Below are positions 1-25,880 of a DNA stretch of 32,026 nucleotides, piece by piece. Source of the stretch: Lentisphaeria bacterium (GTDB lineage Bacteria > Verrucomicrobiota > Lentisphaeria > Victivallales > UBA1829); assembly GCA_017646015.1 (NCBI GenBank), contig JAGCNI010000053.1:1-32026 (forward strand), written 5' to 3'. Within the stretch, counting starts at the first letter, position 1; every line of letters begins with the position of its first letter. The position numbers and the translations under genes are program-made. Below the pieces are notes generated by a model that searched no databases, was not told where the DNA came from, and worked only from the letters and a program-made list of their open reading frames with translations.

Positions 1-553
1 CAGTTCCGGTCTTTGTCCAAGCGTCAGAAGCACGGGAAACGCTCAATGTCGGAGCTTCACGGTCAAGTTTGGTCACTTCCATGCTCTTGGTCACAACATT
101 TCCGGCGTTATCAGTTGCACGGAAATAGACTGTTCCGTTGGAATTTACATCGACCTTGTTGCCACTCTTCCAACTTTTACCGTCGAGACTGTATTCAACT
201 CCCTTGAGACCGCTCACCCAGTCAGAAGCCTGTGCGGCAAGAACCACTGCACCGTTTGTCCAGGAGGAAATATTTCCTGCAATCGAAAGATTCGGCGCAG
301 TATTATCCACACAGTGAACTTTGAAACTTTTGGTGATAACGTTGCCATTATAATCCGACGCACGAAAATAGATCGTGCCGTTATAATTCATATTCACGGA
401 AGAACCACTGCGCCAAGTCTTATTATCATAGCTGTATTCAATCGTTTTTGTTCCGACTCCGGCATCTGATGCACTGGCAGAAACAGTAACACCTGTCTGA
501 ATCCAACTTGCAGGAGCATTGGCGGAAAGAGTAAGTTTCGGCGGAGTGGAATC
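1..553 (-). repeat. Tandem Ig-like (OmpL47-type) protein repeats, about 81 residues each
   Basis: Three successive units start with a D-x-x-x-P motif at residues 733, 814 and 895 of the large surface protein, giving periods of 82 and 81 residues (about 245 bp). Each unit carries a W-x-x-G, an EYSxDxKxWxSG and an NGTxYFRAxDxxGN block. The third unit is cut by the window edge, so the total number is unknown. Such domains usually act as spacers or sugar- and adhesion-binding modules on exported proteins. Confidence 0.75.
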
Positions 554-2749
554 TATGGTAAATGTATTCAAAGAATTCCAGTTGGAACAATTCCCCAGGA
601 AATCGACCGCACGGACTTGCCAGTAATAACTGCCCTCTGCAAGGTTCTCAAAAGAAAAACTGTTTTTCCGGATCGTATAAGTCGTTGCTCCGGAAAAATC
701 AGGTTTTGCCCCTCCATTTTTACGGATCAGTTGCAATTCATACTTATCCACTCCGTTATTATCCGTCGATGCTCCCCAGCTGAGATTGACATTATTATTT
801 TTTGTCTGAGCATAAGTATTGGACGGCTTGCTCGGAGGCGTCCCGTCAACAACCGAGACTGATATTAACTCAATATTGTTATCTTCATTTTTTTCATCAA
901 TAAGATCTGTTGCATCAGCAATCAGAGCGAATTTATGATCTCCGGCAGAGAGTGTACCAGGAGCAAAAGTATAAGTATATGTTGAAGATAGTGACATTGA
1001 ATCTAACGAAGAGATGTACCACTCTGAGATTTTTTTATTACCATCATAGAGATACACATAGAAACCTGATGCATCGGCCTTCCCTGCATTAAAAACATCA
1101 AAGGTCAAAACCAGAGATTGATCATCTGTCAGATTTGAAGTATTAGCCGAAGCAGTCATCAGTAGTGCTGGTCTTTCATACAAGTCAAATTTCAGCTCAC
1201 AACTATTATTGCTGACATCTGCATCATCATTCCAAGAATCTGCGATGACAGAAAGAGAATGAGAACCTGCAGGCAGAGAATAAGTATGTACATATATTTT
1301 TGTATTCACAGTTCCTGAACTTCCAGGATTGGCTACAATATAATCCCCCGCAAATTTGTTCCCGTCAAGCAAGAAATCAAAACTGAATGGAGTGGAAACG
1401 GCACCGACATTCGCCCAATCAAATGAGACGTATATGCTTAAATCTGAAACATCAAGAGGTTCTGTAATTTGGAAATTTGTGATGACGATGTCCGGCAATT
1501 TTACAGGATTTGAAGAAACGCTCACGATCTGCGTTGACGAATAATTGTTTGACTCATTTGATTCTGCTACTTTATGTTCTCCATCAGCCATGAGTCTTAA
1601 AGAATGGATGCCAGTACTTAATTTTCCAACCTCTCCAGCACTGAGTGTATATGATTTTGTTATAGACTCGCCTGCTTTCAGTGGTTCTGTAGCATACGAT
1701 GCCAAAAGTGTATCGCCATCATACAAGTAAGTTCTGAAAACATTATTATCCACAGTTCCTTGATTTTTGACAGTAAAAGTAATTGTTAATGCATCACTGT
1801 CATATTGAGGATCCGTCAGGATGGAATTTGATGAAACTGTAAAAGAAGTAATCACCAAATCTGGTGAGCCGGAGGGAGTAGATGGATTTGACGGTGTTGA
1901 TGGATTTGACGGTGAACTGCTATTACCTGAGATTGTTATGCTATAAGAATAAGAGGAAGTATCAAACGAACTATATATCCAGGAAGACAGTTGATACGTT
2001 TTTCCCGCAGTTAAATAGTAGGAAACTGATTCTCCACAAGTGAATGTTTTAGGATTAGGCTTCTCTTCATACGCTTTGATCGTTACAGATAGTTTAGAAG
2101 AACCATAGCTGCTGAATGTATATGTTCCGCTGGTTGCAACACTGAAATATATAAATTCTGTGCGAGTTGGGTTGATTGCTCCAGATTCAATTTGTCCGGA
2201 AAAAGTAGAAGGCACACTGATTGTCCCCAACCAATTTGTATTCTGAGTGATATTATAACTTGTCGCATAATCATAGAGATCACCATACTCAACGCTATGG
2301 GACGTTCCCTTGACGATATGATCAGTTTCATGGGCAATTACAGAAATGATAGAAAGATCGCTGTGGTTTTGATCCAACAGAACAAACGCATTGTCATTTT
2401 TGATCTGATTATCAGTATCGATCGTTTCTGCCAAACCGTAAAATTCACCGTAGGGTTTGAAAGATTCTGTCGCACCGATATAAACCGTAGAATATTCTTC
2501 GTCTGCCGGAAGCGTGGAAACAAACAATACATTGTCATCCGCATATTGACGGTTCAGTTCATTGGTAATTTCATCAATACGTTCCTGAGAAAGCCCGCTG
2601 TCTTTGACATTTACGGAAATATTCAAATCCAGCGCACTGTTTTGATAGATGGTATCCGCACCATCAAAATCAAGATAAATGATTTGCTGTTCTTTTGCAA
2701 TCTGCGGAGTTTCCAGTTTACCATTGGCAAGTATCTGATCCTCTTTCAT
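1..2749 (-). CDS. Large metzincin-like, CARDB/FnIII/Ig-repeat surface or exported protein (3' end outside window)
   Basis: The reading frame is open for 916 codons and leaves the window, so the C-terminus is missing. It starts at the ATG at 2749 behind a GGGAG/AGAG ribosome site. Residues 24-31 (IYLDFDGA) and 140-151 (HETDHIVKGTSH) resemble the first strand and zinc helix of the LDFDG-type metzincin-like peptidases; H140, E141, H144 and H151 would be the active-site set. Residues 172-276 look like a PPC-type beta domain, followed by an Asn/Ser/Pro linker at 276-295 that contains two SNPSTP copies. Three CARDB-like domains follow (about 296-413, 418-525, 528-633), each ending in an acidic Asn-rich stretch such as ESNESNN. 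A fibronectin III domain (638-732) and Ig-like repeats of 81-82 residues (733 onward) come next. There is no N-terminal signal peptide, so export by a C-terminal signal (type I style) is possible but cannot be seen. Peptidase activity is inferred from the motif only. Confidence 0.85.
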   Translation of the reverse strand, partial: MKEDQILANGKLETPQIAKEQQIIYLDFDGADTIYQNSALDLNISVNVKDSGLSQERIDEITNELNRQYADDNVLFVSTLPADEEYSTVYIGATESFKPYGEFYGLAETIDTDNQIKNDNAFVLLDQNHSDLSIISVIAHETDHIVKGTSHSVEYGDLYDYATSYNITQNTNWLGTISVPSTFSGQIESGAINPTRTEFIYFSVATSGTYTFSSYGSSKLSVTIKAYEEKPNPKTFTCGESVSYYLTAGKTYQLSSWIYSSFDTSSYSYSITISGNSSSPSNPSTPSNPSTPSGSPDLVITSFTVSSNSILTDPQYDSDALTITFTVKNQGTVDNNVFRTYLYDGDTLLASYATEPLKAGESITKSYTLSAGEVGKLSTGIHSLRLMADGEHKVAESNESNNYSSTQIVSVSSNPVKLPDIVITNFQITEPLDVSDLSIYVSFDWANVGAVSTPFSFDFLLDGNKFAGDYIVANPGSSGTVNTKIYVHTYSLPAGSHSLSVIADSWNDDADVSNNSCELKFDLYERPALLMTASANTSNLTDDQSLVLTFDVFNAGKADASGFYVYLYDGNKKISEWYISSLDSMSLSSTYTYTFAPGTLSAGDHKFALIADATDLIDEKNEDNNIELISVSVVDGTPPSKPSNTYAQTKNNNVNLSWGASTDNNGVDKYELQLIRKNGGAKPDFSGATTYTIRKNSFSFENLAEGSYYWQVRAVDFLGNCSNWNSLNTFTIDSTPPKLTLSANAPASWIQTGVTVSASASDAGVGTKTIEYSYDNKTWRSGSSVNMNYNGTIYFRASDYNGNVITKSFKVHCVDNTAPNLSIAGNISSWTNGAVVLAAQASDWVSGLKGVEYSLDGKSWKSGNKVDVNSNGTVYFRATDNAGNVVTKSMEVTKLDREAPTLSVSRASDAWTKTGT

Positions 2750-7287: not shown

Positions 7288-7923
7288 ATGAAAAAACAAT
7301 ATTTTGCATTGAAGTCTTCTCTTCCGATGCTTCGTTTTGACGAGCTTCCGCCGATAACATCTGCCCGTTTTCTGGAAATGTGCGAGGCATTTGTTGCCCC
7401 GAAACTGCTGCATTTTCTGGAAGCACTGACACTGGCACCGAAAGAAATTCCGCAAGTGGAAAAAAATTTCAAAGAAGCCGCTATCCCGACCGGTTCTTCA
7501 TGGAAATCGGATTTCATTGCAATGGAAAAATATGTGCAATGGGAAATCACTTTGAGAAATACATTGGCGGCTCTCCGGGCAGGAAAACAAGCGAAAGATC
7601 CGGCTCAATTCCAAATCCGGGATACAGCTCTTGACAGTACAGCTGTCGCAGCGGCTCAAAATATTTTCGGAATGACTGCTGATCCATTGGAAAAAGAACG
7701 GGCTCTTGATCTGGCACGCTGGAATTTTCTCGACGGAATGGAATGGAATCATGCATTCAATTTTGAAGCTCTCTGTATTTACCGCTGCAAGCTGATGATC
7801 CTCGAAAAATGGGCTGTACGCAAAAAAGGCGATCCGGTGAAAAACCTCGATTCAGCTGCAGAAAAATCGGAAAACGCATTGAAAGATCAGAACAACAATT
7901 ATAACATACAAAATCAGGAGTGA
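7288..7923 (+). CDS. DUF2764-type protein of bacterial V-ATPase operons
   Basis: This soluble protein of 211 residues has no membrane segment. Its place between subunits E and A and its size match the conserved hypothetical gene (DUF2764) found at the same position in Chlamydia and spirochaete V-ATPase operons. The second half is helical and rich in Trp, Leu and Glu (for example the EKERALDLARWNFLDGMEW stretch at about 148-166). The last 25 residues are Asn/Gln/Lys-rich and probably disordered. Because these operons lack a recognisable subunit C, a role as the link between the rotor shaft and the membrane ring is a reasonable guess, but it is not shown by the sequence. AGGA lies 10 bp before the ATG. 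Confidence 0.75.
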   Translation: MKKQYFALKSSLPMLRFDELPPITSARFLEMCEAFVAPKLLHFLEALTLAPKEIPQVEKNFKEAAIPTGSSWKSDFIAMEKYVQWEITLRNTLAALRAGKQAKDPAQFQIRDTALDSTAVAAAQNIFGMTADPLEKERALDLARWNFLDGMEWNHAFNFEALCIYRCKLMILEKWAVRKKGDPVKNLDSAAEKSENALKDQNNNYNIQNQE

Positions 7924-7932
7924 TGGAACATC

Positions 7933-9669
7933 ATGACGGACAACAACAAAGGACATATTGTCGGGGTCAACGGCAATCTGCTTACCGTCGAATTTGACAC
8001 CGCTGTCACGCAGAATGAAGTGGCGTATGCTGTACTCGGTGATATCCGCCTCAAAGCTGAAGTGATCCGTGTCCGCGGACAACGTGCAGACCTTCAGGTT
8101 TTTGAAGGAACAGAAGGTCTGAAAGTCGGCGACCCCATTGAATTCACCGATGACCTGTTGAGTGCTGAACTCGGTCCCGGACTGCTGACCAAAGTTTTTG
8201 ACGGTCTGCAAAACCCCTTGAACAAACTGGCTGAAAAATCAGGATTCTTTCTCCAGCGTGGGATCTATATGGATCCACTGGAATATGATTCAGAATGGGA
8301 TTTCACTCCCATTGCAAAACCCGGCGATACTCTCTTTGCCGGGGATCGCATCGGATTTGTTCCGGAAGGGATCTTCAAACATTATATCATGCTGCCCTTC
8401 TCTTTCCTCGGCAGCTGGGAAGTCATCTCTGTCGCTCCCGCCGGAAAATACAATCTCCGCGCCTGCATGGCAAAAGTACGGAATGCCCGGGGTGAAGAAC
8501 GTGATGTGACAATGGTTCAGAAATGGCCGGTCAAAATTCCGGTTTCCTGTTACAAAGAAAAACTCATGCCGGTCAATCCGTTGATCACACAGCAGCGTAT
8601 CATCGACTCTTTCTTCCCCGTGGCTCAGGGGGGAACATTCTGTACTCCCGGACCTTTCGGTGCTGGAAAAACTGTTTTGCAGCATGCAATCAGTCAGCAT
8701 GCAGAAGCCGACGTTGTGATCATTGCAGCCTGCGGTGAACGAGCCGGGGAAGTTGTGGAGATCCTGCGGGAATTCCCCGAACTGAAAGACCCCCGTACAG
8801 GCAAGAGCCTTATGGACCGCTCCATCATCATCTGCAATACAAGTTCCATGCCGGTCGCAGCCCGTGAAGCATCTGTCTATACCGCTGTCACACTGGCAGA
8901 ATATTACCGTCAGATGGGATTGAACGTCCTGCTTCTGGCAGACTCGACTTCCCGTTGGGCGCAGGCTCTCCGTGAAATGTCCGGACGTCTGGAAGAAATC
9001 CCCGGTGAAGAATCATTCCCCGCATATCTTGAATCCCGTATTGCCAGCTTCTACGAACGCGCAGGTCTCGTTGTTCTGAATGACGGCTCCAAAGGTTCTA
9101 TCACGATCGGCGGATCTGTTTCTCCGGCAGGCGGTAACTTTGAAGAGCCGGTCACTCAGGCTACACTCAAAGTGGTCGGGGCATTCCTCGGCCTCTCCCG
9201 TGACCGTTCCTCCGCACGCCGTTTCCCGGCGATCCACCCCTTGGACAGCTGGAGCAAATATCAGAGTATTGTGGATGAATCCAAATTGCAGTTGGCACGC
9301 CAGACACTCCGCCGCGGAACTGAAGTCAATCAGATGATGAAAGTTGTCGGGGAAGAAGGAACCACCACGGATGACTTTGTGATCTATCTCAAAAGTGAAT
9401 TTCTGGACTTTGTCTATCTGCAGCAGAATACCTTTGATGCAGTGGATGCCGCCACCAGCAAAGACCGTCAGGTCTATACTTTCAACAAAGTGATCGATGT
9501 GCTGAATACAGATTTCGACTTTGAAGATAAAGATATCGCCCGCCGTTACTTCCTCGAACTGCGTCTGCTCTTCACTGATCTGAATTACATTGCATTTGAT
9601 GATGCAAAGTTCAAAGAACAGGAAGAAAAGATCATTGCTAAAATCAGCGAAAGGGCACAACATGCGTAA
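7933..9669 (+). CDS. atpA: V-type ATPase catalytic subunit A
   Basis: This 578-residue protein, close to the usual length for subunit A, carries the ATP site: Walker A GPFGAGKT at residues 240-247, followed by the catalytic GERAGE segment and the [16 protein letters not shown] region. The bulge domain typical of subunit A lies before the P-loop. Three A and three B subunits form the head that hydrolyses or makes ATP. The start at 7933 has AGGAG 12 bp upstream, a slightly long spacing. The 3' end overlaps the start of the subunit B gene by 8 bp, which favours coupled translation of the two partners in equal amounts. Confidence 0.97.
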
Positions 9670-10963
9670 GGTATATCATAAAATCATTCAGATCGCCGGC
9701 AACGTGATCACTGTGGAAGCGGAAAATGTCGGCAACAATGATCTTGCAGAAGTGACAACCACCCGCGGCACCTCGCTGGCACAGGTGATCCGTCTGCAGG
9801 ACAACAAAGTTTATCTTCAGGTCTTCGCCGGATCACGCGGGATCAGTACCGGTGATGAAGTCCGTTTCCTCGGACATCCCATGCAGGTTTCCGCTTCGGA
9901 TGATCTTCTGGGCAGAATCTTCACCGGGTCCGGACAGCCCCGCGACTCCCGTCCTCCGATCGAAGAGGACATGATCAACATCGGCGGTCCCTCTGTCAAT
10001 CCGGCAAAACGTGTCATTCCCCGGAAAATGATCCGTACCGGGATTCCCATGATCGACGTGTTCAATACTTTGGTCGAATCTCAGAAACTCCCGATCTTCT
10101 CTGTGGCTGGTGAACCCTACAATGAACTGCTTGCACGTATTGCCATGCAGGCGGAAGTCGATGTGATCATCCTCGGCGGTATGGGATTGAAATATGATGA
10201 CTATCTGAAATTCCGGAATACACTGGATGAACACGGGGCACTCTCCCGTTCCGTTCTTTTCATCCACACTGCATCCGATCCGATTGTGGAAAGTCTGCTG
10301 GTTCCGGATATGTGTCTGGCGGTGGCTGAACAATATGCTCTGCGGGATAAACGGGTGTTGGTTCTGCTCACAGATATGACAAACTTCTCCGATGCGCTGA
10401 AAGAAATCGCCATCACCATGGAACAGATCCCCTCCAACCGCGGATATCCCGGAGACCTTTACAGTCAGCTCGCAGCCCGTTATGAAAAAGCGGTTGACTT
10501 TGACGGTGCAGGCTCCATCACAATTCTGGCGGTCACAACCATGCCCGGTGATGACGTGACTCACCCGGTTCCGGACAACACCGGATACATTACCGAAGGA
10601 CAGTTCTATCTCCGCAACGGACGCATTGAACCGTTCGGTTCTCTGAGCCGACTGAAACAGCAGGTCAACGGCAGAACACGCGGTGACCATCGTGTCATCA
10701 TGGATACAATGATCCGTTTCTATGCAGACTTCAAAGAAACACTGGAAAAACAGTCCATGGGTTTCCAGATGAGTTCCTGGGACAACAAACTGCTGAAATT
10801 CGGTAAACGTTTTGAAACAGAAATGATGGATCTCTCTGTCAATATCCCGCTTGAAGAGGCACTGGATCTCGGGTGGAAGATCCTTGCGGACTGTTTTGAC
10901 CCGACTGAAACAGGAATCAAAACGGATTTGATCCGGGAATATTGGCCGAAAGACGCTCAATAA
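9662..10963 (+). CDS. atpB: V-type ATPase regulatory subunit B
   Basis: This protein has 434 residues from the ATG at 9662, inside the end of the A gene. An in-frame ATG at 9590 would add 24 residues unlike the family, and the N-terminus from 9662 ([20 protein letters not shown]) matches the usual beta-barrel start. The P-loop region is degenerate ([18 protein letters not shown]), as expected for B, which contributes to nucleotide binding at the A-B interface without being the main catalytic subunit. The segments around [13 protein letters not shown] and [17 protein letters not shown] are strongly conserved in this family. Confidence 0.96.
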
Positions 10964-10981
10964 GCGTGTGGAGAGTAAATT

Positions 10982-11590
10982 ATGGCGAAAGTCAAACTGA
11001 CAAAAACAGCACTGAAACAACAGAGGGATGACCTCAAGCAGTTTCAGCGTTTTCTTCCGACGCTGCAGTTAAAAAAACAGCAGCTTCAGGTGGAAATGCG
11101 TCTTTGTCTTGACCGGATCGAAAAAAATGAAGAACGCGAAAAAGAGAGTAAACGCTCTTTGGAAAACTGGCTTTCTCTTTTCGGTTCTTCAGAAGATGCA
11201 GACAAAATTGCGGCACTGGTCCGTGTTGAACAAATCAACACGGATACACTCAACATTGCCGGAGTGGATGTCCCGCGTTTTCAGAGTGTCATATTTGAAA
11301 ATGTGCCGTATGACCTCTATATGGAAGACCTCTGGATCGATGATGCAGTCAATGCAGTCAGAAAGATCGTGGAACTCCGTATTGAGCGTGAGATCATACG
11401 CCGTCAATATGATTTGATCCGTCAGGAACTCCGCGTTACCACTCAGCGCGTCAATCTCTTTGAAAAAGTCAAGATCCCGGAATGCAAGGAAAATATCCGC
11501 ATCATCGGAATCTATCTCGGTGACATGGATACCAGTGCTGTGGCACGATCCAAGATCGCCAAGAAAAAACTGCAGGAGACCGTGGCATGA
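10982..11590 (+). CDS. atpD: V-type ATPase subunit D (central rotor shaft)
   Basis: This 202-residue protein has long N- and C-terminal helices (about 5-75 and 120-175) that would pair as the coiled-coil shaft inside the A3B3 head; the N-terminal VKLTKTALKQQRDDLKQFQRF stretch is typical. It lies 18 bp after the B gene, and its stop overlaps the start of the I gene as ATGA. In other V-ATPases D works with subunit F, but no F gene is present in this operon, as in Chlamydia. Confidence 0.93.
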   Translation: MAKVKLTKTALKQQRDDLKQFQRFLPTLQLKKQQLQVEMRLCLDRIEKNEEREKESKRSLENWLSLFGSSEDADKIAALVRVEQINTDTLNIAGVDVPRFQSVIFENVPYDLYMEDLWIDDAVNAVRKIVELRIEREIIRRQYDLIRQELRVTTQRVNLFEKVKIPECKENIRIIGIYLGDMDTSAVARSKIAKKKLQETVA

Positions 11591-13434
11591 TCGTTCCTAT
11601 GAAAAAAATCAATCTTCTGTGTCTGGAGCATGAGCGGACAGCCGCTCTGGAAAAACTCCGGGAACTGGGGATTATGCACGTCGATATTGCCGTCAAACCG
11701 GAATCAGAGAGTGTGAATGTACTCGAACAATCTCTGCAAGACACGGCAAAACTCTATAATATTCTTACAGGGTTCAAGACAAAAAATCAGGATATTCCTG
11801 CCGGGCTCACCGGAAAAGAAATCCTGAAAAAAGGTCTCGAACTTCTTGAAAAACAAAATGATCTGGAAAAAGAAAGAGAACTGCTGATCCGTGATTTGGA
11901 TACATTGAGCAAATGGGGTGATTTCCAGCCGAAACTGCTTGATACACTTGCGAAAAACGGGATCTACGTTTCTTTCCATCTGGCATTCAAAGATGTTTAC
12001 GACCACATGGAACTGCCGGAAGGAATCACCCGTATTCTCATCAGCCGGATCAAAACAGAACGTTATTTTCTGTTGATCACGCAGGATAAATCTCTTGAAC
12101 TGCCCTGTGCGCCTCTGGTTCTTCCGGAAAAATCTCTTTCGGCAGTCAGAGCAGAACTCATCTCTGTGGAAAAAGAGATTGCAGACTGCAAGGAATCCAT
12201 GCAGAACCTTGCCCCTGCCGCCGGACGCCTCAAAGAATATTTTGAACAACTGGGATCCGAATATGAGTTTGTTGCCAACCGCGACACCATGGTATCGGAT
12301 GGCAGAATCGCTTATCTGACCGGATATGTACCTGCACCGGAAATGGAAAAACTGGTGGAGGCAGCCCATCAGAATGGCTGGGCATTGACAGCAGAAGATC
12401 CGGAACTGACAGATGCACGTGTTCCGACCTGCATCAAAAAACCGGCATGGATGAAGATCATTGATCCGCTTTTTGACTTTATCGGGATTGCCCCCGGTTA
12501 TCGTGAAAATGACGTATCACTCTTCTTTCTGATCGCATTTCCGATTTTCTTCGGGATGTTGATCGGTGACACTGCTTACGGAGCTCTTTTCATTGTTACA
12601 GCATTGATCTGTAAATATGTATTCCGGAAAAAGAGTGCGGCACAACTGCCGTTGAATCTGTTGATCCTGCTCTCGATCTTCTCAATCATCTGGGGCTTGC
12701 TCACAGGATCCTGTCTCGGACTGCCGCGGAATGTTCTGCCGGGATTCCTGCAGGGTCTCGACTTCCTTGCAGATCCGAAAGAAAGTGAAGCAGCCAGATC
12801 TCTGGCAGAAAAACTGAAAATCTCCAATCCGGATGATTTGAAAGACAAATTCATCCAGTGGTTCTGTTTTCTGCTGGCAGCCCTGCATCTCTCTTCGGCA
12901 CGTTTGTATAAGTGCTTCACAGAAATCCGCAACTGGCGCAGCTGGGGAAATCTGGGTTGGGCATGTCTGATCTGGGGAAACTTCTTCACAGCAGTCAATC
13001 TGGTGGTATTCCCCGGTACATTCCCGGGTTATATCGGCTACGCTCTGTATGGTGTGGGACTTCTCTTCATCGTGGCAACGACCACAGCGGAAGCGGCATT
13101 GAATCTGCCGTTTTCTGTTGTCGGCAGTTTTGTGGATGTGCTTTCTTACATCCGCCTCTTTGCTGTCGGACTTTCGGGTGTCTATGTGGGAACCTGTTTC
13201 AATGACATGGGAAAAATGGTGTTGGATGCGCTGCCCAAAGATCTGATGGCGATCGGGATCATCGGTCTGCTGCTGGTCGCTCTTGCCGGACATATTCTGA
13301 ACATCATTCTCGGATTCATGGGCGTTCTGGTTCATGCGATCCGTCTGAACACATTGGAATTTTCCAATCATATTGAAATGCAGTGGACTGGGATCAATTA
13401 CCGTCCGTTCAAGAAAAAAGAAAAAAAAGATTAA
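11587..13434 (+). CDS. atpI: V-type ATPase membrane subunit I (a-subunit)
   Basis: This 615-residue protein has an N-terminal cytoplasmic half (1 to about 305) with coiled-coil segments that meets the peripheral stalk, and a membrane half (about 310-600) with several hydrophobic helices. R523 in the LSYIRLFAVGLSG segment matches the arginine that faces the rotor ring and is needed for ion passage. The start is the ATG at 11587 in the ATGA overlap with the D gene; a second ATG four codons later is an alternative. Together with subunit K it forms the ion channel. Confidence 0.95.
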   Translation: MIVPMKKINLLCLEHERTAALEKLRELGIMHVDIAVKPESESVNVLEQSLQDTAKLYNILTGFKTKNQDIPAGLTGKEILKKGLELLEKQNDLEKERELLIRDLDTLSKWGDFQPKLLDTLAKNGIYVSFHLAFKDVYDHMELPEGITRILISRIKTERYFLLITQDKSLELPCAPLVLPEKSLSAVRAELISVEKEIADCKESMQNLAPAAGRLKEYFEQLGSEYEFVANRDTMVSDGRIAYLTGYVPAPEMEKLVEAAHQNGWALTAEDPELTDARVPTCIKKPAWMKIIDPLFDFIGIAPGYRENDVSLFFLIAFPIFFGMLIGDTAYGALFIVTALICKYVFRKKSAAQLPLNLLILLSIFSIIWGLLTGSCLGLPRNVLPGFLQGLDFLADPKESEAARSLAEKLKISNPDDLKDKFIQWFCFLLAALHLSSARLYKCFTEIRNWRSWGNLGWACLIWGNFFTAVNLVVFPGTFPGYIGYALYGVGLLFIVATTTAEAALNLPFSVVGSFVDVLSYIRLFAVGLSGVYVGTCFNDMGKMVLDALPKDLMAIGIIGLLLVALAGHILNIILGFMGVLVHAIRLNTLEFSNHIEMQWTGINYRPFKKKEKKD

Positions 13435-13469
13435 CCAGGATCAAAACATAAAAAAAGGAGAAAAAGAAA

Positions 13470-14036
13470 ATGATTCTCGAAATTGCAACACAGGCAGCAG
13501 CGGCTGCAACAGAACTGAAACCCTTTGTTTACACCCAGGAACACCTGAACTACTTCTTTCAGGCAATGACCTATGCTGGCGCATTTGCCGCCATCGGCTT
13601 TGCTGCAATGGGTTCCGCTTACGGATGCGGGATCGCATGTTCTTCTGCGATCGGGGCATGGAAAAAATGCTATTCCCAGAATAAACCGGCTCCGTTCCAG
13701 CTGCTGGTCTTCGCCGGAGCTCCGCTCTCTCAGGTCATCTATGGTATGATCATCATGTTCATCATCATGGGTAAACAGCATGTCACACAGGCAGCATGGA
13801 TGGTCTATCTGTTTGTCGGGCTCGTTGCAGGGATCGCAATGGGTATCTCCTCTCTCTGGCAGGGAATTTCCGGTGCGGCAGCTTGCGATGCGTTTGCAGA
13901 AAACGGAAAAGGATTTACAAACCAGCTGATGGTTCTCGGTATCGTGGAAACGGTTGCTATCTTCGTGATGGCATTCTCTATCGTTCTGCTGGGAAAAGTT
14001 GTTCCTGTGGCAGCAGCCGCAACTGCAGCCCTCTGA
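13470..14036 (+). CDS. atpK: V-type ATPase rotor ring subunit K, four-helix, probably sodium-binding
   Basis: This 188-residue protein has four membrane helices arranged as two fused hairpins (about 34-62, 76-100, 110-132, 150-177). The carboxylate is E160 in the GIVETVAIF segment of helix 4. The first hairpin has no acid at the matching place, the V-type arrangement with one ion per four helices. The segment PLSQVIYG (85-92) and Q131 in WQGISGAAA align with the sodium ligands of Enterococcus hirae NtpK (Thr64, Gln65, Tyr68, Gln110, Glu139), giving S87, Q88, Y91, Q131 and E160 here. Sodium coupling is therefore likely but inferred. AAGGAG precedes the ATG. It is the last gene of the operon. 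Confidence 0.95.
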   Translation: MILEIATQAAAAATELKPFVYTQEHLNYFFQAMTYAGAFAAIGFAAMGSAYGCGIACSSAIGAWKKCYSQNKPAPFQLLVFAGAPLSQVIYGMIIMFIIMGKQHVTQAAWMVYLFVGLVAGIAMGISSLWQGISGAAACDAFAENGKGFTNQLMVLGIVETVAIFVMAFSIVLLGKVVPVAAAATAAL

Positions 14037-24281: not shown

Positions 24282-25880
24282 ATGAGTCCGCAAATCGTTA
24301 TGGCAGCTTCCATTTCCGGAGGCGGGGTTTTATTGATCACCATTATGTTATTCATCATTTTTGTGATCCTGGCAGGGATCTGCACCCGTGTTAAAAAATG
24401 TCCGTCAGACCGGATCATGGTCATTTACGGAAAAACGACTACACAGGCTACCCGTTGTATTCATGGCGGTGTGGCATTTATCTGGCCGGTATTCCAGGAT
24501 TACGGCTTTATCTCTCTGCGTCCGATCCAGCTGGAAGTGAATCTGCGGAACGCTTTGTGCAAACAGAATATCCGAATCAATGTTCCCTCTGTTTTCACAG
24601 TCGGTGTCAGTACGGATGAAACCCTGATGGGCAATGCTGCCAACCGTTTGCTCGGTTTGAATCCGGATTCGATCGGTGAATTGGCAAAAGATATTATTTT
24701 CGGACAGCTGCGTCTGGTGATTGCCTCCATGACGATCGAGCAGATCAACTCCGACCGTGAAACATTTCTGCGGAGTATTGAAGCCAACGTGGCGGAAGAA
24801 CTCAACAAAATCGGTCTTCTGCTCTTGAACGTCAACATAACTGACATCACAGATGAAAGCGGATATATTGATGCGATCGGGAAACGTGCAGCCTCCGAAG
24901 CGATCAATAAAGCCCGTATCGAAGTGGCAGAAGAAGAACGCAAAGGGGGAATCGGGGAAGCCGAAGCCCGCAAAGCACAACGTATCGCTGTTTCTCAGGC
25001 AGAAGCCGCCGCTCAATCAGGAGAAGCCGATGCCGATAAACAACGCCGTATCGCCGTAACACAGGCGGAAGCCGCCGCTCAGGCTGGTGAAGCGGATGCA
25101 GACAAACAACGCCGTATCGCGATCAAACAGGCAGAAGCCGAAGCCATGATCGGGGAAGCCGAAGCTGATAAACAACGCCGTATCGCAACAAAACAGGCGG
25201 AAGCCTCTGCAATCGAAGGAGAAAACGTTTCTGCCATCGAAATCGCACAGTCCAATGCAAACCGTATCGAAAAAGAAGCCGACGCCTATCGTCAGGCAGA
25301 AGCCGCAAAACGGATCGCGGAAGCAAAAATCAAACAAGCCGATTACGAAGCGGAAGAAGTCGCCCAGTCTGCCAGAGCAAAAATGGAAATGGAAAGACAG
25401 AAAGCCGATACTCTCGTTCAGGCGGAAATCGAAAAAGAACAGGTCATCATCAAAGCCGAAGCTGAAGCCGAAAAACTCCGTCGTGAAGCAAAAGGTCAGG
25501 CAGATGCGATCTATGCAAAACTCGAAGCCGAAGCGAAAGGAAATTATGAGATCCTCAAAGCGAAAGGCGAAGGTTATAATCAGATCATTGCCGCATGCGG
25601 AACCGATCCGGATGCAGCCGCAAAAATGCTCCTCATCGAAAAACTCGAAGCAATCGTTCAGCTCCAGACCGAAGCAATCCGTAATATCAAGATCGATAAG
25701 GTCACTGTCTGGGACAGCGGCAAAAATGAAAACGGAAAAAATTCAACTGCCAACTTTCTCAGCGGCATGATGCAGAGTCTCCCCCCACTGCATGATGTGG
25801 CAGGAATGGCAGGTGTCGAACTGCCCAACTATCTCGGAACAGTTAAAGATTCTGCAAAATCAGAATCTCCTGCTGAATAA
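24282..25880 (+). CDS. Flotillin-like SPFH protein (YqiK/FloT type)
   Basis: This 532-residue protein has one N-terminal membrane helix (about 13-35), an SPFH/band 7 domain (about 40-220) and a long Ala/Glu-rich coiled coil (about 220-450) with four exact-length 22-residue repeats at 225-312. The C-terminal part (450-532) is less regular. Flotillins assemble into large cages or microdomains on the inner face of the membrane and affect signalling and secretion. AAGGAG precedes the ATG. It follows the NfeD-like gene and ends at a strong terminator, so the two form a complete operon. Confidence 0.92.
   Translation: MSPQIVMAASISGGGVLLITIMLFIIFVILAGICTRVKKCPSDRIMVIYGKTTTQATRCIHGGVAFIWPVFQDYGFISLRPIQLEVNLRNALCKQNIRINVPSVFTVGVSTDETLMGNAANRLLGLNPDSIGELAKDIIFGQLRLVIASMTIEQINSDRETFLRSIEANVAEELNKIGLLLLNVNITDITDESGYIDAIGKRAASEAINKARIEVAEEERKGGIGEAEARKAQRIAVSQAEAAAQSGEADADKQRRIAVTQAEAAAQAGEADADKQRRIAIKQAEAEAMIGEAEADKQRRIATKQAEASAIEGENVSAIEIAQSNANRIEKEADAYRQAEAAKRIAEAKIKQADYEAEEVAQSARAKMEMERQKADTLVQAEIEKEQVIIKAEAEAEKLRREAKGQADAIYAKLEAEAKGNYEILKAKGEGYNQIIAACGTDPDAAAKMLLIEKLEAIVQLQTEAIRNIKIDKVTVWDSGKNENGKNSTANFLSGMMQSLPPLHDVAGMAGVELPNYLGTVKDSAKSESPAE
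24954..25217 (+). repeat. Four tandem 66-bp units coding a 22-residue repeat in flotillin
   Basis: Units start at 24954, 25020, 25086 and 25152. The protein consensus begins GEADADKQRRIA and ends with a QAEA-rich part. Units 2 to 4 share nearly identical DNA over the KQRRIA codons (aaacaacgccgtatcgc), which points to fairly recent duplication. A fifth unit decays after its first two residues. Confidence 0.9.

Follow-up and report, generated by a model that had tools for sequence, protein, structure and literature searches.

The first ~163 residues of a large repeat protein from a Lentisphaeria bacterium appear to form a zinc peptidase domain derived from the metzincins, shortened after its third zinc-binding histidine and, in most members of the family that it belongs to, with that histidine shifted by one residue; we give this reading a probability of roughly 0.55. 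Metzincins are defined by the spacing of their zinc motif together with a Met-turn, and a natural family that keeps the ligands and the general base, with the third ligand shifted and the turn dropped, would help to tell the requirements of the active site from its habits. The domain also marks a peptidase-like family that is absent from the libraries searched here.

Layout of the window protein

The protein is encoded at the start of the window, by which we mean the whole stretch of 32,026 nucleotides that was analysed. The start of the window coincides with a contig end, and the open reading frame runs off it with its 3' end missing. The features of the protein are as follows.

2..2749, minus strand: whole open reading frame (916 aa), with the metzincin-like domain at the N terminus, then CARDB and Ig-like/OmpL47-type repeats
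2687..2749, minus strand: N-terminal leader, residues 1-21, short, without a hydrophobic signal peptide by eye
2261..2686, minus strand: metzincin-like domain, residues 22-163, matching classical LDFDG metzincins (hhalign probability 98.9, E 1.1e-17)
2660..2686, minus strand: strand 1, QIIYLDFDG, residues 22-30 (F28 in 90/91 aligned domains, G30 in 88/91, L26 in 86/91, D27 in 85/91)
2372..2395, minus strand: DNAFVLLD, residues 119-126 (A121 in 91/91, V123 in 88/91, F122 in 87/91), likely an edge strand
2297..2332, minus strand: zinc motif HETDHIVKGTSH, residues 140-151, with H140, E141, H144 and H151, and Gly at position 9
2264..2278, minus strand: LYDYA, residues 158-162, the conserved L-x-x-[YF]-A (Tyr in 77 and Phe in 11, Ala in 84, of 91)
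1535..1867, minus strand: CARDB domain, residues 295-405, the best of two stretches (E 3.2e-32)
89..262, minus strand: OmpL47-type repeat, residues 830-887, the best of two stretches (E 2.9e-19)

The earlier note had read an HExxH followed by xxxGxxH at residues 140-151, and its coordinates, strand and residue numbers are correct. The IYLDFDG strand, which occupies residues 24-30, lies upstream of the motif, and judging from the alignment DNAFVLLD would be the edge strand that precedes the zinc helix. The absence of a signal peptide from the leader was judged by inspection, not by a predictor. When residues 1-183 were compared with Pfam and NCBIfam, no significant match was returned and Peptidase_M10 appeared at E 0.1; against PF00413 the window domain scored 12.9 bits, below the gathering cut-off of 24 bits. 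A PDB search with the single window domain gave non-significant matches alone, mostly to caspase and plasmepsin.

Sampling and distribution of the family

The window's own genome (2.5 Mb in 137 contigs, 78.8% complete) holds a single copy of the domain. A first search found it in 2 of 41 genomes, this one included, and a contig scan with one protein yielded two relatives, both from Lentisphaerae MAGs. With a five-row profile, the domain was detected in 47 of 197 Lentisphaeria genomes at up to 12 matches per genome, and 21 of the 81 high-quality Lentisphaeria genomes carry it. The profile search did not find it in the two other genomes of the window's genus. Three pattern scans of viral contigs matched 8, 30 and 5 stretches, none of which encoded a relative.

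We aligned 91 domains, that is, 95 profile matches minus four duplicate loci, with about 14 short or partial places left out; their class (Lentisphaeria) is assigned by inference. Measured between stops, complete relatives have 519-4061 aa, and a further reading frame, which is open, has 5099 aa. The domain profile matches twice within a single open frame of locus L085 (G131:C74), at contig positions 5710-6072 and 6121-6591.

The zinc motif across 91 domains

The residues of the motif are widely kept: H140 in 87, E141 in 83 and H144 in 89 of the 91 aligned domains. The third His stands at position 12 of the motif in 72 domains and at the classical position 11 in 11, and HExxH has been lost in the remaining 8. 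A third His at either position accompanies HExxH in 83/83 rows and is found in 0/8 rows without it, an association that was not built into the set of 91. The profile check that the earlier note had proposed thus shows its one-residue insertion to be conserved, and the longer spacing is a family trait, not chance. The note had also held that homologues losing the His or Glu residues would count against its reading: 83 of the 91 domains retain HExxH and the third His, and the other eight have indeed lost the motif. The two positions of the Gly, the classical spacing within the family, the absent Met-turn described below and the loss of the motif in 8/91 go beyond what that note contained.

Among the 72 rows with His at position 12, the Gly occupies position 8 in 50 (the HLLGTLDH type), position 9 in 21 and both in 1; the window motif belongs to the Gly-9 group (the HIVKGTSH type). 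Snapalysin uses Asp as its third ligand, and we considered whether position 11, which is often Asp, could be the real third ligand here. This was ruled out because the residue at position 11 is not fixed (D 35, E 17, N 10, S 5, T 3, K 1 and A 1) while His 12 is constant, although its 72/72 holds by definition of the set. In a tree built without the motif columns, the position of the Gly changes at least eight times and the spacing four times, and Gly position differs between the close relatives L027 and L034. Conservation mostly concerns the total motif length of 12 rather than the place of the Gly.

An outgroup of six classical metzincins roots the tree on a long branch, with a warning of long-branch effects. 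A single clade for the His-12 rows, motif-less rows included, was not rejected (p-AU 0.09), and the root is unsure. Spacing requires four changes in either tree, and the 11 classical-spacing rows fit equally well as ancestral or as reverted.

All but one of the eight motif-less rows group in a single supported clade (100/93), and these seven are sited inside longer proteins. N-terminal placement was seen in 80/83 motif-bearing rows versus 1/8 motif-less ones; the three motif-bearing exceptions include one at the edge of a locus and one just above the chosen cut-off. Because a Fisher p ignores kinship, we treat motif loss and internal placement as roughly one event. Four rows keep H140 and H144 without the Glu, and in these the third His is gone too. 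Outside the motif, E108 (2426-2428) and G105 are invariant in 91/91 domains, the motif-less members too, and E108 is absent from the classical relatives.

Descent from metzincins

Across 387 genomes of the phylum, a search gave weak matches in other classes. Those classical relatives (L130-L134) carry LDFDG or LDFNG, HExGHxLxLxHDG and a WxPIMG Met-turn (5/5), and a sixth, L162, comes from the same class as the family and brings the total with WxPIMG to 6/6. In hhalign, 63 family members aligned with the five classical LDFDG metzincins at the probability of 98.9 and E value of 1.1e-17 listed above, so that the link to LDFDG-type peptidases proposed in the earlier note was borne out. The alignment runs from strand 1 as far as the Tyr that follows the motif and places a one-residue gap between the second and third His. 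The window's own subgroup of five alone gave 97.6 (E 3.4e-12), and an unrelated HlyD alignment, used as a negative control, gave a probability of 0.8 (E 0.069).

Matches of single members point in the same direction. When ten members were compared with Pfam, L081 reached Peptidase_M10 at 24.6 bits (cut-off 24), the one of the ten to reach the PF00413 cut-off, and L038 touched Reprolysin_5 at 27.0 bits (cut-off 27); both have classical spacing. Among 63 members scanned against Pfam, M10 and Reprolysin_3 each appeared in 20 (E up to 0.1), and NCBIfam returned weak matches alone, to archaemetzincin in 5 and snapalysin in 4. In the PDB at E up to 5, 14 of 15 sequences were metzincins by name, with the best metzincin at E 0.21 and singly non-significant; the top match (E 0.064) is an unrelated pyrophosphatase. 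AlphaFold models, each made from three sequences (the window, L006 and L007), had pLDDT values of 39.8 and 37.2.

Together, the profile comparisons and the members at Pfam cut-offs show common descent with metzincins; with the 91-domain alignment, they support the idea of a diverged metzincin-type subfamily at the head of a repeat protein.

Missing Met-turn and clan membership

The family domain ends at about L-x-x-[YF]-A, from which the chains pass into repeats, whereas the classical relatives go on to the WxPIMG of the Met-turn. We found no conserved Met after the third His: over 83 rows and up to 60 residues on, Met occurs in at most 6 rows at any offset. The window domain has no Met in the 60 residues past its third His, and the classical-spacing rows of the family follow the general pattern. 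The metzincin clan places the third ligand at position 11 (HExxHxxGxxH/D) and a Met-turn below the zinc; in the window domain the third His is at position 12 and the turn is missing. Because these are the defining features, we do not file the domain as a strict metzincin, and would call it a metzincin relative by descent. In mutants of other metzincins, as described in PMC1266349, replacing the Met has effects that run from little or no loss of the enzyme's function to compromised kinetics or instability, and the turn itself is retained in them.

Probable export of the repeat proteins

The repeats after the domain vary from member to member. In a Pfam scan of five complete relatives, two had RTX and AIDA repeats above cut-off, one AIDA and FG-GAP, one FG-GAP and one CARDB, which puts RTX or AIDA repeats in 3/5; RTX-like tails were recognised by eye in 8 of 20 complete relative reading frames. 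In the window's own genome, the first reading frame at three of four inspected contig starts (C41, C104 and C64; loci L189, L190 and L191, respectively) is the 3' end of a repeat protein. All three tails end in KGMIA, RTX repeats occur in C41 alone, and similar tails are found in relatives. Each of these 3' ends is treated here as separate, and one of them may belong to the window gene.

At the locus of one relative (L193:601-7504), genes for a C39-like ABC transporter and HlyD adjoin a 906-aa AIDA/CARDB protein, and another relative has ABC and HlyD genes together. The generic models TIGR01843 and TIGR03375 stayed below their cut-offs in the genomes searched, the window's included, and weak matches to them also occurred in 13 and 14, respectively, of 14 control genomes. 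For this reason the case for type I export, by which the window protein family is probably secreted, is built on the anatomy of the proteins and on the two relatives.

At the leader, 42 of the 91 relatives carry GG[VLIMT][QRM], where the window protein has ANGKL. The idea of an N-terminal Gly-Gly as a C39-cleaved leader was dropped: the pattern occurs in just those 42 rows, and by eye the C39-like domains of two relatives' transporters, that of L193 among them, have no Cys at the usual catalytic place.

Proposed function and alternatives

We propose that the first ~163 residues derive from LDFDG-type metzincins and form a zinc-peptidase domain; the catalytic zinc would be bound by H140, H144 and H151, with E141 as general base. 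The extra residue may be absorbed where the zinc helix ends. In the window form this would lengthen the helix by one residue ahead of the Gly; the commoner form would leave the Gly at position 8 and have a longer loop after it. The C-terminal subdomain with its Met-turn would have been lost, and within about a dozen residues the chain would enter extracellular repeat domains. The whole would be a large, adhesin-like protein, secreted or on the cell surface, that has no N-terminal signal and is probably exported by a type I system reading its C terminus; the peptidase would act extracellularly, on the end of the long stalk.

The domain most likely works like a metzincin, and we put catalysis at about even odds. 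The Glu that accompanies the three His argues for it and the missing turn against it: the Met-turn segment, a defining part of active metzincins, is missing entirely. The fold also seems to have a use without zinc, because the 8/91 members that lost the motif persist in their proteins. A bolder reading, which we hold to be somewhat less probable than not, is a metzincin lineage that has remained catalytically active without a Met-turn, its third ligand displaced by one residue and its Gly hinge alternating between position 8 and position 9 in close relatives. If true, this would be a natural test of what a metzincin active site needs, carried by adhesin-like proteins that leave the cell by type I export.

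The family-wide absence of the Met-turn segment, the persistence of a clade of seven without the motif at internal places and the attachment of the domain to adhesin-type repeats would also suit a metzincin fold serving as an N-terminal cap or a ligand-binding adhesin head, stiffened by zinc and devoid of peptidase activity. In metzincins the Glu equivalent to E141 is not a zinc ligand. Its presence wherever the three His are (83/83), and the loss of the third His from the four rows that keep H140 and H144 but no Glu, speak against such a purely structural or binding role, which we consider unlikely but worth keeping in mind. That the domain is no metzincin at all, its HExxH having arisen by chance in an unrelated alpha/beta domain, would agree with the want of a significant PDB or NCBIfam match for the window domain alone and with its Pfam M10 match at just E 0.1; it is opposed by the profile comparisons and by the members that reach Pfam cut-offs, and we regard it as highly improbable.

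Proteins exported by type I systems leave the cell with their N terminus last. A peptidase at that end might fold last after export and cut its own stalk or a neighbouring repeat protein for release or maturation, as the consistent N-terminal placement of the motif-bearing domains and the type I-kind C termini of several relatives would allow. Such self-processing is improbable in our view, given that the repeats behind the domain differ between members. The targets suggested in the earlier note, the protein itself or host glycoproteins, are guesses.

Comparison with known systems

The closest counterparts are the LDFDG-type metzincins (L130-L134 and L162), for which we found no family name. 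They have in common with the window family the LDFDG strand, the domain order, HExxH, the third His and a Tyr soon after it, but their third His is at position 11 and they continue into WxPIMG and a C-terminal segment, whereas in the window family the Met-turn is missing and the third His is mostly at 12. By eye, L162 starts with a signal-peptide-like stretch. Matrixins (M10, PF00413) and reprolysin-like M12B peptidases (PF13688, PF13582) are the models whose cut-offs classical-spacing members reach or touch; compared with them, the window family has an extra residue ahead of the third His in 72/91 domains and no Met-turn.

Serralysins (M10B) carry a metzincin domain without a Sec signal on RTX proteins that are type I exported. 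The window family resembles them in its metzincin-type domain, its apparent lack of a Sec signal, the RTX repeats of some relatives and its probable type I export; serralysins differ in having a classical motif and a Met-turn and no giant CARDB/AIDA stalk. Leishmanolysin (M8) keeps the rest of the metzincin fold. In its motif, 62 residues are inserted between Gly and third His (PMC9321319), a precedent for a tolerated insertion at this point, although a whole segment there compares with one residue here. In ADAM pseudopeptidases, also a metzincin-derived family with motif-less members, ligands or base are lost and the Met-turn is typically kept (PMC11266112); they are a mirror image of the window family, which keeps ligands and base with the Met-turn gone.

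In the literature searched, the longer spacing written as a motif string occurred once, given as the general metzincin motif, and we read it as a misprint. LDFDG returned unrelated matches alone, and among the papers listed for Lentisphaerae with metalloproteases, or with RTX, adhesins or type I secretion, none dealt with the window family.

Other genes in the window

Most genes around it in the window have housekeeping roles, and the neighbourhood offers no clue to the function of the repeat protein. A V/A-type ATPase gene cluster, with a DUF2764 protein, lies at 7288-14036. Further along, a 66-bp tandem repeat of 3.9 copies (24950-25205) lies inside the reading frame of a Band_7 (SPFH) domain protein (24282-25880).
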